Shown here: piece by piece, positions 5,708 through 18,690 of the stretch
Layout of the letters: the number at the start of each line of letters is the position of its first letter
Position numbering within the stretch: position 1 is the stretch's first letter
Assembly (NCBI GenBank): GCA_025353105.1
Contig: JANXRG010000090.1
Location: 1-38,022, forward strand
Source of the DNA: Verrucomicrobiota bacterium
Lineage (GTDB): Bacteria; Verrucomicrobiota; Verrucomicrobiia; Chthoniobacterales; SZAS-18
DNA length: 38,022 nt
Reading direction: 5' to 3'
The notes under the pieces: model-generated
Told to the model about the DNA's origin: nothing
Seen by the model: only the letters and a program-made list of their open reading frames with translations
Databases searched by the model: none
Program-made: the position numbers and the translations under genes

Positions 5708-7447
5708 ATGAAAGTCCAACCCTTCCTCGCCCGTACCTTTCTGCCGCCGCAAATCGATCTCATGGACCCGGCGGCCCTGGCGCCCGTCTTCGAACAACTC
5801 GAGTCGCGACTCACTGGTGCGGCGGATGCCGCGGCGCTCGAGACCTGGCTTGATGCCTACAGCGAGGTGAATGCCGCGATCTCGGAAAACTCCGCGCGCA
5901 CCTACATCGCAATGACGTGCCAGACCGATGATCCCGAGAAGGAGAAGACGTACCTCCACCTCGTCGAGAAAGTGGACCCCTGGCTGAAGCCGCAACAGTT
6001 CGCGCTGCAGCAGAAACTCGTGACGCATCCGGCCTTCGACGCGATGCCGGCCTACTACGATGTCTTCCGCCGCAGCGTCCGGAATCACGTCTCACTTTAC
6101 CGCGAAGCCAATGTCCCGCGCGAGACCGAGGAGGCGAGACTGTGCCAGCAATACCAGAAAATCATCGGCGCAATGATGGTGATTTTCGACGGCAAGGAGC
6201 AGACCCTTGCGCAATTGGGACGCGTGCTGCAGGAAACCGATCGCGCGCGCCGGCAGCAGGCCTGGGAACTAATCGCGCAGCGCCGCCTCGAGGATCGCGA
6301 CAAGCTCGAGGACATCTTTGACGAGCTGCTGAATCTGCGGGGCGAAATCGCGCGGGAGGCCGGATTTGCGGACTATCGCGCCTACGCGTTCGCGGTGAAC
6401 GAGCGCTTCGATTACTCGCCCGAAGATTGCGTGCGCTTTCAGGAAACGATCGAGCAGAGCATCGTGCCTCTCGCGCGCTCGCTCCAGCGCGACCGGCAAA
6501 CAAAACTGGGCGTCGATCCGCTGCGCCCGTGGGACCTCGCGGTCGACCCGGAAAACAAACCGCCGCTCCAGCCGTTCGCGAACGCCGAGGAGTTTGTCGC
6601 GAAATCGCAGACCATTTTCAACCGTCTCGACGCCCGGCTCGGCCAGTCGTTTTCGCTGCTCGGCGCGCACGGGTTGCTGGATCTCGAGAGCCGCAAAGGA
6701 AAGGCCCCCGGCGGGTATCAATCCACGCTCGAGGAATCGCGCCTGCCGTTCATCTTCATGAATGCGGTCGGCGTGCAGGGCGACGTCGTCACGCTCCTGC
6801 ACGAGGCCGGCCACGCCTTTCATGCACTCGCCGCGCGCGAGCAGCGGCTGGGCGGTTACCGCGGGTCGCCGATCGAATTCTGCGAGGTCGCCTCGATGTC
6901 GATGGAGTTGATGGCGGCGCCGCACCTCGAGGAATTTTATTCTACCAACGACGCCAATCGCGCGCGCCGGCAACACCTCGAGGGCATCATCGCGTTCTTC
7001 CCGTGGATGGCGACGGTCGATGCCTTCCAGCACTGGCTCTACACCCATCCCAACCACCCGCGCGACGAGCGCCGGGCCCATTGGCTGTCGCTGATGGACC
7101 GCTTTGGTGGGATCGAGGAATACGCGGGTTACGAAGACATTCGGGGATACGCCTGGCATCGGCAGCTGCACATTTTCCTGCACGCGTTTTACTACGTGGA
7201 GTACGGCATCGCGCAGCTGGGCGCATTGCAGATGTGGCGGCACGCGCGCCAGGACCCAGCCAAGGCCGTGGACTTGTATCTCAACGGCTTGAGTCTTGGT
7301 GGGTCCAAGCCCCTGCCGGAATTGTTTTCCGCCGCCGGTTTGAAATTCGATTTCAGCGAGGAGACAATTCAACCGCTCGTCGATGACGTCGGAGCAGTGC
7401 TGGCAGAGCTCGCAAGTCAGGTGGATCGGCTCGTCCCGAGCCGATGA
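5708..7447 (+). CDS. pepF: M3-family oligoendopeptidase (PepF-like)
   Basis: The 579-residue protein has the length of oligoendopeptidase F. The zinc site HEAGHAFHALA (His365, Glu366, His369) lies in the C-terminal half, with FCEVASMSMELMA about 25-30 residues later supplying the third ligand. No signal peptide is present, so it should act in the cytoplasm on short peptides. This fits its place just upstream of histidine catabolism, since peptide breakdown yields free histidine. No Shine-Dalgarno sequence precedes the ATG; a possible -10 (GGCTAAACT, 5675-5683) lies 24 bases upstream. The last codons form part of two alternative hairpins that reach into the hutH leader. Confidence 0.9.
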   Translation: MKVQPFLARTFLPPQIDLMDPAALAPVFEQLESRLTGAADAAALETWLDAYSEVNAAISENSARTYIAMTCQTDDPEKEKTYLHLVEKVDPWLKPQQFALQQKLVTHPAFDAMPAYYDVFRRSVRNHVSLYREANVPRETEEARLCQQYQKIIGAMMVIFDGKEQTLAQLGRVLQETDRARRQQAWELIAQRRLEDRDKLEDIFDELLNLRGEIAREAGFADYRAYAFAVNERFDYSPEDCVRFQETIEQSIVPLARSLQRDRQTKLGVDPLRPWDLAVDPENKPPLQPFANAEEFVAKSQTIFNRLDARLGQSFSLLGAHGLLDLESRKGKAPGGYQSTLEESRLPFIFMNAVGVQGDVVTLLHEAGHAFHALAAREQRLGGYRGSPIEFCEVASMSMELMAAPHLEEFYSTNDANRARRQHLEGIIAFFPWMATVDAFQHWLYTHPNHPRDERRAHWLSLMDRFGGIEEYAGYEDIRGYAWHRQLHIFLHAFYYVEYGIAQLGALQMWRHARQDPAKAVDLYLNGLSLGGSKPLPELFSAAGLKFDFSEETIQPLVDDVGAVLAELASQVDRLVPSR

Positions 7448-15186: not shown

Positions 15187-16125
15187 ATGCGCCTTCTCCT
15201 CATCGACGGGCATTATTACGCGTACCGTTCGTTCCACGCGATTCGCGACCTGAGCAATTCGCGTGGCGAGCCGACGAACGCGATTTTCGGATTCGCGAAA
15301 TCGGTGCGGCTGATGCTCAAACATCTGGCACCGGACTTTGCCGCCGTGGTCTGGGACGACGGCGTGCCCAAGCGCCGCACGGCACTCCAGCCGCAATACA
15401 AACAGAACCGTGCGGCGATGCCCGAACCGATGCGAGCGCAGATGGATTTTCTGTACTCGCTCGTGCCGAAGATGGGCCTCCACGGATTGAGCCTGCCGGA
15501 CACGGAGGCCGATGATCTCATCGGATCGTATGCCCGCACCGCGGCGGAGCGCGGCATCGAATCGATCCTCGCCACCAACGACAAGGATCTCCTCGCGCTC
15601 GCCAACCGGCACGTCCGGATCTATTCGACCGCCAAGGCGGATCTCGCGTCGCCGGATGAGCCGTTTGCGCTGCTCGACTCCGCGGCGGTCGAGAAAAAGT
15701 GGGGCGTGGCGCCCGCGCGCATCCATGAGGTGCTCGCGCTCACCGGCGATAGCGTCGACAACATTCCCGGCGTGCCCGGTGTCGGGCCAAAGACCGCGGC
15801 CGCGCTGGTGCTTGAGCACGGCACGATCGAGGCGCTGCTTGCGCACCCCGAAGCCGTGAAGAACGAGAAGCTGCGCGCGAAGATCGTCGCCGCCGCGGAT
15901 CAGATTCGACAGAACCGCGAAATGGTCCGGCTCGACGACGATCTCCCGCTGCCAAAGCCGATCGAGGCGCTACGCGTGGAGCCCGATTATCCCGCGCTGA
16001 TTGCCGAACTCGAGAAATGCGAGTTCCGGGGGCTGCTCGCCGACTACCGGGCCGAAGCCCAGCGCTCGAGCGACCGGCCCGCCAAGCGGCCCGGCAACGA
16101 GCAGACGGAGCTGTTTCCGTTTTGA
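15187..16125 (+). CDS. Stand-alone 5'-3' exonuclease (Pol I N-terminal domain / ExoIX-like)
   Basis: The 312-residue protein matches the 5'-nuclease domain of DNA polymerase I without polymerase or 3'-5' exonuclease parts. Motifs: LLIDGHYYAYRSFHA (first metal Asp), VVWDDGVPKRR, LPDTEADDLIGSYA, ATNDKDLLALA, ALTGDSVDNIPGVPGVGPKTAAALV (metal site plus helix-hairpin-helix). It would remove RNA primers or 5' flaps. The tail is short and charged and ends NEQTELFPF; QTELF (306-310) resembles the beta-clamp-binding pentapeptide QLxLF. The ATG is 36 bases after the peroxiredoxin stop and has no Shine-Dalgarno sequence. It converges with cdsA across a repeat-filled spacer. Confidence 0.9.
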   Translation: MRLLLIDGHYYAYRSFHAIRDLSNSRGEPTNAIFGFAKSVRLMLKHLAPDFAAVVWDDGVPKRRTALQPQYKQNRAAMPEPMRAQMDFLYSLVPKMGLHGLSLPDTEADDLIGSYARTAAERGIESILATNDKDLLALANRHVRIYSTAKADLASPDEPFALLDSAAVEKKWGVAPARIHEVLALTGDSVDNIPGVPGVGPKTAAALVLEHGTIEALLAHPEAVKNEKLRAKIVAAADQIRQNREMVRLDDDLPLPKPIEALRVEPDYPALIAELEKCEFRGLLADYRAEAQRSSDRPAKRPGNEQTELFPF

Positions 16126-16400: not shown

Positions 16401-17399
16401 CTACGCCGCAAACCAATAGCGGGTGAGGTGAAAAAACACCGGGGCGGCAAAGCACAACGAGTCGATCCGATCGATCACGCCACCGTGCCCCTCGATCACG
16501 GCGCCGTAGTCCTTCACGCCGCGGTCCCGCTTAATCGCCGACATTACCAGGCCACCACCAAATCCCATCAGCGTGATGGCCAGCGCCATCGCCCCGGCCT
16601 GAACGGGCGTAAATGGGGTCGCCCACCAAAGCGCCGCGCCGATTGCCGTCGCACTCAAAACGCCGCCCACGAACCCCTCCCAGGTCTTGTTCGGGCTCAC
16701 CAGCGGCGCGATCTTGTGTCGTCCCAGCGATTTGCCCCAGATCCATTGCAACACGTCGCTGAGTTGTGCCACGAGCACGAACCAGAAAAGCAGCTTCTCG
16801 TTCTGCCCGCCATAACCGGGAATCTCGAGAGAAAGCAGCATCGGCGCGTGGCTCACGCAATAAACGCAAACCATCAGCCCCCACTGGACCTTGGCCGTGC
16901 GCTCGAGAAACTCCTTCACGTCACCCTGCAGCGCGCTGCGAATCGGAATGAACAGAAACGCATAAACCGGGATCATGATGATCGCGAGGCCGTACCATTC
17001 CATACCGACGAGGTAGTACTGCAACGGCGTAATGACGAAGAACACCCAGAACAATGTCTGGTGATCGCCGGGTCGCGTCGGGGTCAGTGTGATGAATTCG
17101 CGCAGCGCGAGAAACGAAATCAGCCCAAAGAGCACCGTCGTACCGATTCGCCCGATGAAAAGGGCGAGCCCGAACACCGCCGCCATGAACCACCACGCGC
17201 GAATCCGCACGTTCATGTTTTCCACCGTCTTGCGACCGCGCTCGCTCGTCACGCGTCGCGACAACACCCAGCCCGTGACCGACGCAACGACAAGCAGGAC
17301 CAGCACTCCTTCGAGCAACCAGCGCGCCGGGCCGTCCACGGGCGCCAACGCGGGCACGAGCGTGCCGAGCAGGATCACCGGGATGATGAGAGTTTTCAT
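16401..17399 (-). CDS. cdsA: Phosphatidate cytidylyltransferase (CdsA family, YnbB-like context)
   Basis: It would make CDP-diacylglycerol (or a related CDP-lipid) from CTP and phosphatidate at the inner membrane. The 332-residue protein has about eight hydrophobic segments and the full C-terminal signature: SAIKRDRGVKDYG followed by GHGGVIDRIDS, and PNKTWEGFVGG before it. It is the last gene of the minus-strand run, starting nine bases after the acyltransferase stop. Because it sits with a CDP-alcohol transferase and an acyltransferase as in the E. coli ynbAB arrangement, it may be a dedicated second CdsA rather than the housekeeping enzyme; no other copy is visible to decide. Confidence 0.9.
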   Translation of the reverse strand: MKTLIIPVILLGTLVPALAPVDGPARWLLEGVLVLLVVASVTGWVLSRRVTSERGRKTVENMNVRIRAWWFMAAVFGLALFIGRIGTTVLFGLISFLALREFITLTPTRPGDHQTLFWVFFVITPLQYYLVGMEWYGLAIIMIPVYAFLFIPIRSALQGDVKEFLERTAKVQWGLMVCVYCVSHAPMLLSLEIPGYGGQNEKLLFWFVLVAQLSDVLQWIWGKSLGRHKIAPLVSPNKTWEGFVGGVLSATAIGAALWWATPFTPVQAGAMALAITLMGFGGGLVMSAIKRDRGVKDYGAVIEGHGGVIDRIDSLCFAAPVFFHLTRYWFAA

Positions 17400-17408
17400 G
17401 GCAGGTGC

Positions 17409-18011
17409 TTACGCTGAGCGCAGACCGAGCACGGCCCCGCGCGCCCGCGCGAGGAAATCCGCTTTCTCCTCGCCCGCGTCGAGGCGAATCGGCGCGCCGA
17501 TGGTCACCCCACCGAGCAAAGGCACCGGGAGGATCGATCCCTTCGGTAGAATCCGGTTCAAGTTCTCCATGAACACGGGCACCAACTCAACGTCAGAACG
17601 CTCGCGTGCGAGATGATAGAGCCCGCTTTTGAAGATCCCCGGCTCACCGGTCAGGCTGCGCGTTCCTTCCGGAAAGATGATCAGCGATTGCCGATCGCCC
17701 AGTGCCTGTACCATCTCCGCGACCGGATTGGCCAATGGATCTGCCGGCACGCGATCGATGAGCACTGCGTTGAAGATGCGCTCCGCCAGGTAGCGGCGCG
17801 GCGCGGTGGCGCCCCAGTAGTCGCGCGCGGCCACCGGACGCGTCAGCGGGCGCAGAGAGGGCGGAAGCGCGGACCACAACACGAGAGTGTCGAGGTGGCT
17901 GGTGTGGTTCGCAAAATAGATCCGCTGCCGCGGATGCGGTTCGCACCCGACCCACCGCGCGCGCGCCCCGCTCACCAAGCGCGACAATCCCACGAGAATC
18001 CACTTCATCAT
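17409..18011 (-). CDS. 1-acyl-glycerol-3-phosphate acyltransferase (PlsC family)
   Basis: The 200-residue protein has the PlsC motifs NHTSHLDTL (block I, NHxxxxD), FPEGTRSLTG (block III) and a later ELVPVFMENLNR segment. It would transfer a fatty acyl group to a lysophosphatidate-like acceptor at the membrane. The start at MMKWILVGLSRLVSG gives a short membrane-anchoring helix; the longer frame to 18074 overlaps the upstream gene and is rejected. Sixteen bases separate it from the CDP-alcohol transferase stop and nine from cdsA, so the three are surely co-transcribed. It could have a special acceptor tied to the neighbouring enzymes. Confidence 0.88.
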   Translation of the reverse strand: MMKWILVGLSRLVSGARARWVGCEPHPRQRIYFANHTSHLDTLVLWSALPPSLRPLTRPVAARDYWGATAPRRYLAERIFNAVLIDRVPADPLANPVAEMVQALGDRQSLIIFPEGTRSLTGEPGIFKSGLYHLARERSDVELVPVFMENLNRILPKGSILPVPLLGGVTIGAPIRLDAGEEKADFLARARGAVLGLRSA

Positions 18012-18027
18012 AGAGGCAACCCCCGGA

Positions 18028-18690
18028 TCATTTCGACTCCAATTCCCGCAGAATCCGCCTGACTCGGCGCGCAATCGTCACCCCGCAACCCCCCGCCATG
18101 ATCGCCAGCGCCCACGGCATGAGATCGACACGCCAGACGCCGAGCGGCACCAACAGCGCGTTGCCGAGGCAGGCCGCCGTGAGCAAAAACATGCGTTGCT
18201 GCTTCGCCATCGGGCCGATGAAATATTGCGCCGTCCCGCACGCCGCGCCGAGCGTGCGTACATAGGCAGTGACGACCGCAAGCACCGCCGCCGCCCAGCC
18301 GAGATCGTGCATCCAGGCGATCCCGGGAACGGCATACCCCGCGGCCGCCAAGACCAGGGCGTCGGAAACTCGGTCCGGCATTTCGTTAAAGATCTCCCCC
18401 GACTTCGTGCGGAAGCCACCTTCGACCGCGACCATGCCATCGAACAGATTGGCGAGGAGTCGGAGCTGGATCCCGGCAGCCGCCCCGAGCCAGCAAAAGA
18501 CGCGCGGGGACCCCTCGGTTCTGCCCGCGCCCACCAGGCACGCCGCCGCGGTCGCCGCGAAAACGACGCTCAGCACCGAAATCGTGTTCGGTCGCAGCCC
18601 CGCGTTCGCCAAGGCGCGCGCCATCGCCGCGGCCCAGCGCGTGTCACGCACCGCAATCGGTCGTCGGGTCAGATTTTCCGTTTCTTCCAC
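18028..18690 (-). CDS. CDP-alcohol phosphatidyltransferase-family protein with altered active site
   Basis: The 220-residue protein has several membrane helices. The usual motif D1xxD2GxxAR-x8-GxxxD3xxxD4 here reads N81-L-F-D84-G-M-V-A-V89-x8-G98-E-I-F-N102-E-M-P-D106: two of four metal-binding Asp are Asn and the Arg is Val. As I recall, E. coli YnbA also has Asn at both places (but keeps Arg), so this is likely a YnbA-like subfamily with a changed metal centre, not a dead enzyme. It would join a CDP-activated lipid or polyol to an alcohol; the product is unknown. The start is GTG at 18690, overlapped by a small ORF. PlsC and CdsA partners follow at once. Confidence 0.85.
   Translation of the reverse strand: MEETENLTRRPIAVRDTRWAAAMARALANAGLRPNTISVLSVVFAATAAACLVGAGRTEGSPRVFCWLGAAAGIQLRLLANLFDGMVAVEGGFRTKSGEIFNEMPDRVSDALVLAAAGYAVPGIAWMHDLGWAAAVLAVVTAYVRTLGAACGTAQYFIGPMAKQQRMFLLTAACLGNALLVPLGVWRVDLMPWALAIMAGGCGVTIARRVRRILRELESK

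Follow-up and report, generated by a model that had tools for sequence, protein, structure and literature searches.

The window examined here, the whole stretch of 38,022 nt, encodes a CDP-alcohol phosphatidyltransferase-like protein (P0002, Table 1) of a widespread branch that includes YnbA of Escherichia coli. In this branch the metal-binding positions D1 and D3 of the superfamily motif have both become Asn, and an Arg (Arg77 in the window protein) always stands four residues ahead of the first Asn. On balance, the protein is judged to be an active CDP-alcohol phosphatidyltransferase that serves a YnbA lipid pathway and uses a phosphorylated acceptor, its metal site being remodelled and probably either one-metal or metal-poor. 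The evidence consists of the conservation of the branch, the strict coupling of N81, N102 and R77, the fold, the retained acceptor-phosphate residues, the gene cassette and the co-occurrence with YnbC; from these we infer that the protein is active, and likewise its probable substrates, the number of metals and what Arg77 does.

The ORF is read on the minus strand (nt 18690 to 18028, including the stop codon), begins with GTG and specifies 220 aa; the plus-strand reading of nt 18028–18690 gave no comparable protein. Its motif comprises R77, N81-LF-D84-G-MV-A88-V89, G98, N102 and D106, and the spacing is canonical, i.e. [D/N]xxDGxxA-x-x8-Gxxx[D/N]xxxD. With the family profile, N81, D84, N102 and D106 align to the four metal Asps of Mycobacterium tuberculosis PgsA1 (MtPgsA1; 6h53, E = 8e-17). 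The residue numbers of the initial annotation (Asn81, Asp84, Gly85, Ala88, Val89, Gly98, Asn102 and Asp106) agree exactly with the translation. That annotation had allowed for the true motif lying elsewhere in the protein, or for a full-Asp site in close orthologues. The former is excluded by the profile alignment to MtPgsA1 and the PIP-synthase fold, which place the motif as it was read, and none of the close orthologues of the window protein carries a full-Asp site.

Table 1. Positions of the transferase gene, its diagnostic codons and its partner genes in the window
Feature	Position (nt)	Strand	Basis or remark
YnbA-branch CDP-alcohol phosphatidyltransferase-like protein P0002	18028..18690	minus	translation; PIP-synthase profile match; AlphaFold model
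Arg77 codon	18460..18462	minus	4 residues ahead of Asn81; diagnostic of Asn/Asn branch
Asn81 codon (position D1)	18448..18450	minus	translation, pattern counts, alignment
Asp84 codon (D2, retained)	18439..18441	minus	translation, alignment
Val89 codon (Arg position of DGxxAR)	18424..18426	minus	translation; role of MtPgsA1 R76 per PMC6506517
Asn102 codon (position D3)	18385..18387	minus	translation, alignment
Asp106 codon (D4, retained, proposed catalytic base)	18373..18375	minus	translation, alignment; MtPIPS D93N (PMC4634129)
Lys163 codon (aligned with R152 in MtPgsA1 acceptor pocket)	18202..18204	minus	profile alignment
Arg166 codon (aligned with MtPgsA1 R155, acceptor phosphate)	18193..18195	minus	profile alignment
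Arg209 codon (aligned with MtPgsA1 R195, acceptor phosphate)	18064..18066	minus	profile alignment
PlsC-like acyltransferase, second cassette gene	17409..18074	minus	PF01553 1e-16; NHTSHLD and FPEGTRS motifs intact
CdsA/YnbB-like cytidylyltransferase, third cassette gene	16401..17399	minus	PF01148 3e-63; catalytic signature SAIKRDRGVKDYGAVIEGHGGVIDRID intact

Distinct relatives, 115 in number, were collected from at least 12 phyla, with YnbA of E. coli among them, and Asn occupies both positions in every one (115/115). In all of these the first Asn is also preceded, at a distance of four residues, by Arg; none of 32 classical Asp/Asp proteins has Arg there, the residue being A, S, V, C, T, I or G. 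The corresponding figures for the tree set are 88/88 Asn/Asn and 0/45 Asp/Asp proteins. Positions 77, 81 and 102 completely separate the two groups in an alignment of 133 proteins, and positions 110, 163, 166 and 209 are invariant within the branch and mostly different in the Asp/Asp proteins. Residues R77, N81, D84, G85, A88, G98, N102, D106, D110, K163, R166 and R209 are invariant in 98 aligned relatives, N81 and N102 remaining so down to 18% identity. Within the order to which the window organism belongs, relatives were found in 11 of 38 genomes, again with Asn at both places. A search of GTDB genomes gave 563 confirmed matches, from which 80 loci in 12 named phyla were taken; since the search pattern required the first Asn and was blind to the second, the presence of the latter in 80/80 loci is a free test. 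The Pfam model PF01066 misses the window protein at E up to 1, yet finds 78 of 98 branch members, so surveys made with Pfam alone undercount the branch.

The Arg position of the AR motif, which is Val89 in the window protein, holds Val, Ile, Met, Leu, Gly or Gln in 106/115 members and Arg in 9/115 (the YnbA type). Because YnbA-type members keep this Arg, its replacement by Val is not part of the linked Asn/Asn set. Judged from the alignments, Asn/Asn/Arg77 is a trait of the branch and Val89 a trait of a sub-branch. In the initial annotation, the two Asn and the Arg-to-Val change had been listed together as changes of the catalytic motif. The Asn pair holds, as does the statement that E. coli YnbA has the same pair, which its sequence confirms, but Val89 does not belong with the pair, and the constant companion of the pair, Arg77, had been overlooked. 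One genome (G122) has both sub-branches at separate sites (Val-type at locus L191, YnbA-type at L189), which suggests that the two types are not interchangeable. At L191 the PlsC gene is 1.7 kb from the transferase and does not adjoin it. Apparent fusion proteins at two other loci (L009 and L012) are long stop-to-stop ORFs whose N-terminal part looks spurious, and no fusion is claimed.

The linkage between the two Asn positions was examined in 241 genomes of the same phylum as the window, using four DNA patterns that differ only in having Asp or Asn at D1 and D3. The Asn/Asn pattern gave 27 matches in 25 genomes, of which 26 are clear members and one (L122) is a chance match, while the Asp/Asp pattern was present in 241/241 genomes. 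With a spacing of exactly eight residues and with D2 and D4 obligatory, the patterns could miss rarer forms; within these bounds, the mixed motifs gave three Asn/Asp and three Asp/Asn matches, none of which (0/6) is a CDP-alcohol transferase by sequence, all being chance occurrences. Single replacements, each only one base distant, were not seen in the 241 genomes. Taken together, the Asn/Asn, mixed and Asp/Asp counts from the same genomes indicate that D1 and D3 change only together. In a tree comparison run after removal of eight diagnostic columns, the tree holding all Asn/Asn proteins together scored higher than the free quick tree by 8.3 log units (p-AU 0.63), a result that fits a single origin of the branch but is not proof of one. 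Recent decay, or a sequencing error in one genome, would have a negligible probability and can be considered refuted: 115 distinct proteins share these residues, the reading frame and partner genes are intact, and no evidence favouring either explanation was found. The view taken in the initial annotation, that this is not decay, is borne out both by the Asn pair being a coupled, conserved trait and by the catalytic motifs kept in the partner genes of the window.

What these positions do in classical enzymes is known from structures. D1, D2 and D3 of MjPSS hold one metal along with the phosphates of CDP-DAG, and D3, D1 and D4 hold the other, such that D1 and D3 ligate both metals while D2 and D4 ligate one each (PMC8633023). 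In MtPgsA1, one metal is bound via D1, D2, D3 and phosphates and the other via D3 and D4, and the AR Arg (R76) contacts the alpha-phosphate (PMC6506517). D4 is the proposed base, and MtPIPS with the D93N change is almost inactive (PMC4634129). Seen against the MjPSS structure, exactly the two ligands common to both metals are altered in the branch, with one Asp per site retained, so the different metal arrangement put forward in the initial annotation is a sound inference. Partial support for it comes from the coupling, from the new Arg and from the changed ligands being the shared ones. The secondary structure of the AlphaFold model puts Arg77 in TM2 (helix 61–90), a single helical turn below Asn81, where it may fill or replace a metal site.

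Asn can serve as a metal ligand, and as D84 and D106 are retained and the fold is unchanged, the protein might be an ordinary two-metal transferase in which the Asn residues ligate via their carbonyl oxygens, the Asn/Asn/Arg77 set doing no more than tuning metal affinity or donor specificity. This explanation deserves attention but is unlikely to be correct, given that Ser or Asn at any metal Asp of MjPSS reduces or abolishes activity (PMC8633023), and that the strict lack of single replacements together with the gain of Arg77 points to rebuilding of the site more than to its fine adjustment. Because Asn or Ser at these Asps impairs MjPSS, sequence alone also leaves some room for an inactive or binding role. 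The protein would then be a catalytically dead relative that binds CDP-DAG or lipid and acts as a scaffold or regulator for its PlsC-like and CdsA-like partners. Both bridging carboxylates have been lost, the alpha-phosphate Arg has also gone in the Val-type branch, and in the literature searched no activity is reported for YnbA or any other member. Such a role is nevertheless considered improbable: in at least 12 phyla neither the catalytic base D106 nor D84 nor the acceptor-phosphate residues vary, whereas an enzyme that has died usually loses its base and accumulates changes in the substrate pocket.

Among the conserved positions are those of the acceptor pocket. In the profile alignment, K163, R166 and R209 fall on R152, R155 and R195 of MtPgsA1, and all three are invariant in the branch; the MtPgsA1 residues, along with S132, hold a sulfate in the acceptor pocket (PMC6506517). 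R107 aligns with MtPgsA1 R94 and is kept in 80/88 members of the tree set, though not in the YnbA type. These correspondences suggest a classical, PIP-synthase-like acceptor side and an acceptor that is phosphorylated. Inositol phosphate itself is an unlikely acceptor in the window organism, as no match to inositol-phosphate synthase (PF01658) was found in its genome, which is 97.6% complete; matches were present in 6 of 14 control genomes. Since the window genome lacks this synthase, the PIP-synthase-like pocket does not tell what the acceptor is.

The transferase gene heads a compact cassette, with gaps of roughly 16 bases between the transferase and PlsC-like genes (the likelier start of the latter being the ATG at 18011) and roughly 9 bases between the PlsC-like and CdsA-like genes. 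Upstream of the cassette is an ornithine cyclodeaminase-like gene, and the next gene downstream is on the opposite strand, where nt 15187–16125 encode a free-standing 5'-3' exonuclease similar to the N-terminal portion of DNA polymerase I. A PlsC-like gene and a CdsA-like gene both lie within 5 kb in 60 of the 66 Val-type loci that have at least 3 kb of flanking sequence on each side. For YnbA-type loci with such flanks (n = 9), both partners are present in five and the CdsA-like gene alone in two. Gene order within the cassette varies among loci. No further general neighbours were found in an all-against-all comparison of flanking ORFs, the other large clusters being antisense frames of the same genes. 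At one actinomycete locus (L026), the PlsC-like gene is split over two overlapping frames (6624–7313 and 7003–7299) and may contain a frameshift.

The CdsA-like partner carries a loop with Q in D-V-x-Q-Y (S-D-V-L-Q-W in the window) in 71 of 72 readable cases, the Q being preceded by Q or E. The housekeeping CdsA of the window genome, which is specified by a second, separate gene, has D-I-G-A-Y at this place. With a diagnostic loop of its own in the partner, the cassette looks co-specialised. A donor other than CDP-DAG can be envisaged from this, namely an activated lipid made by the divergent CdsA-like enzyme of the cassette, with the metal site changed to fit. The partner loop speaks for such a donor, as do the loss of the alpha-phosphate Arg in the Val-type branch and the finding that YnbB cannot replace CdsA in E. 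coli (PMC6362211). Its probability is nevertheless rated as low, because the CTP-transferase signature of the partner and the CDP-binding motif P(D/N)xx(T/S) of the branch are retained, and because overproduced YnbB, like CdsA, increases MPIase, whose synthesis is believed to require CDP-DAG (PMC6362211).

Homologues of YnbC (51% identical to the E. coli protein) and YnbD are encoded side by side on another contig of the window genome. Some loci also carry YnbC and YnbD, and one (L196) holds all five genes. Full-length YnbC, defined as Methyltransf_20 with E at or below about 1e-100, was present in 10 of the 241 genomes, and all ten are among the 25 Asn/Asn genomes, the other 15/25 lacking it. 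The probability of this co-occurrence by chance is 2e-11 if genomes are taken as independent and 6e-5 by family, although kinship makes both values optimistic. The ten YnbC genomes include both sub-branches, which supports one shared pathway. In a genome with no Asn/Asn gene (G264), a short Methyltransf_20 fragment with two stops (C1:3269427–3269636) is perhaps a decayed ynbC. Directly after the YnbC–YnbD pair of the window genome is a gene for an MGDG-synthase-type glycosyltransferase (L204:3613–4914, minus strand); this was rejected as a member of the system, as no homologue adjoins YnbC/YnbD in the other loci examined. An early label of YnbA as a cholinephosphotransferase was withdrawn from EcoCyc (PMC3781023), and diacylglycerol cholinephosphotransferase, the old prediction, is not retained here as its function. 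E. coli ynbA is reported to be activated by BglJ-RcsB after acid stress (PMC12871917). The literature searched, a limited collection, yielded no description of the function of YnbA or YnbC, of the Asn pair or of Arg77.

If the protein is an active transferase, as favoured here, the window gene would provide the committed step of a lipid pathway of the YnbA type. CDP-diacylglycerol, the most likely donor, would be supplied by the PlsC-like and CdsA-like proteins of the cassette, and the membrane-embedded transferase would move the phosphatidyl group to a phosphate-bearing acceptor, giving a phosphatidyl-X-phosphate. YnbD (PAP2 and dual-specificity phosphatase domains) and YnbC (hydrolase and methyltransferase) would then trim and modify this product. 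At the active site, the change of the two metal-bridging carboxylates to Asn would leave one Asp per former metal position (D84 and D106), with D106 still the likely base, and Arg77 would supply the positive charge given by a metal in classical enzymes; with this charge in place of a metal, catalysis would probably proceed with one metal or with weak metal binding. A more tentative proposal is that the branch works without the classical bridged two-metal site altogether, both carboxylates having become Asn in one coupled step and the invariant Arg having taken over the charge of one or both metals, and that it makes a phospholipid from a private donor pool, for which it has an acyltransferase and a CDP-lipid synthase of its own.

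Most phospholipid head groups are made by CDP-alcohol transferases, for which a two-metal mechanism is taken to hold generally. With a natural, widespread branch in which both ligands shared by the metals are always missing and a new Arg is always present, an experiment on the role of the metals is ready to hand. The Asn/Asn and Arg77 branch points to altered chemistry and to a dedicated lipid pathway, and for the ynbABCD operon of E. coli there is now a class of reaction and a set of genes that can be put to the test, with an acceptor that is phosphorylated, a CDP-lipid supply of its own, and a phosphatase and methyltransferase acting downstream.

In terms of known families, the window protein has the six-helix membrane fold and the motif spacing (xxxDGxxA-x-x8-Gxxx-x-xxxD) of the class I CDP-alcohol phosphotransferase superfamily, but not its four Asp ligands and AR Arg (D1 and D3 are Asn, the Arg is Val), and is for that reason placed in the fold family as a divergent branch rather than as a canonical member. 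Its AlphaFold model (pLDDT 94.1) superposes on PIP synthases with Z of about 20–21 and rmsd of 2.0–2.6 Å. The likeness to these enzymes (MtPgsA1, RsPIPS and MkPIPS) extends to the CDP-binding motif and to equivalents of R94, R152, R155 and R195, whereas PIP synthases have four Asps and the AR Arg, and no Arg at –4. Against the phosphatidylinositol-phosphate synthase model NF045883, the protein scores 39.1 bits, far below the curated cut-off of 170, although R166 and R209 match the acceptor-phosphate arginines R155 and R195 of that family in the profile alignment. The best family match by sequence is NF040950 (archaetidylinositol-phosphate synthase; 3e-14), with a score of 53 against a cut-off of 180. 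The fold of AF2299 is likewise similar (Z 20.7), but AF2299 has a full-Asp site. Three classical PF01066 CDP-alcohol transferases of the window genome belong to the same superfamily and differ in having Asp/Asp and AR in 3/3.

The nearest known system is that of E. coli YnbA (b1408; ynbABCD operon). Identity is only 19%, YnbA keeps the AR Arg where the window protein has Val89, and the E. coli operon has no PlsC-like gene, unlike the window cassette. Common to both proteins are Asn at D1 and D3, Arg at –4, D110, K163 and R166; both have a linked CdsA-like gene (YnbB in E. coli), and the window genome carries homologues of the YnbC and YnbD of the E. coli operon.
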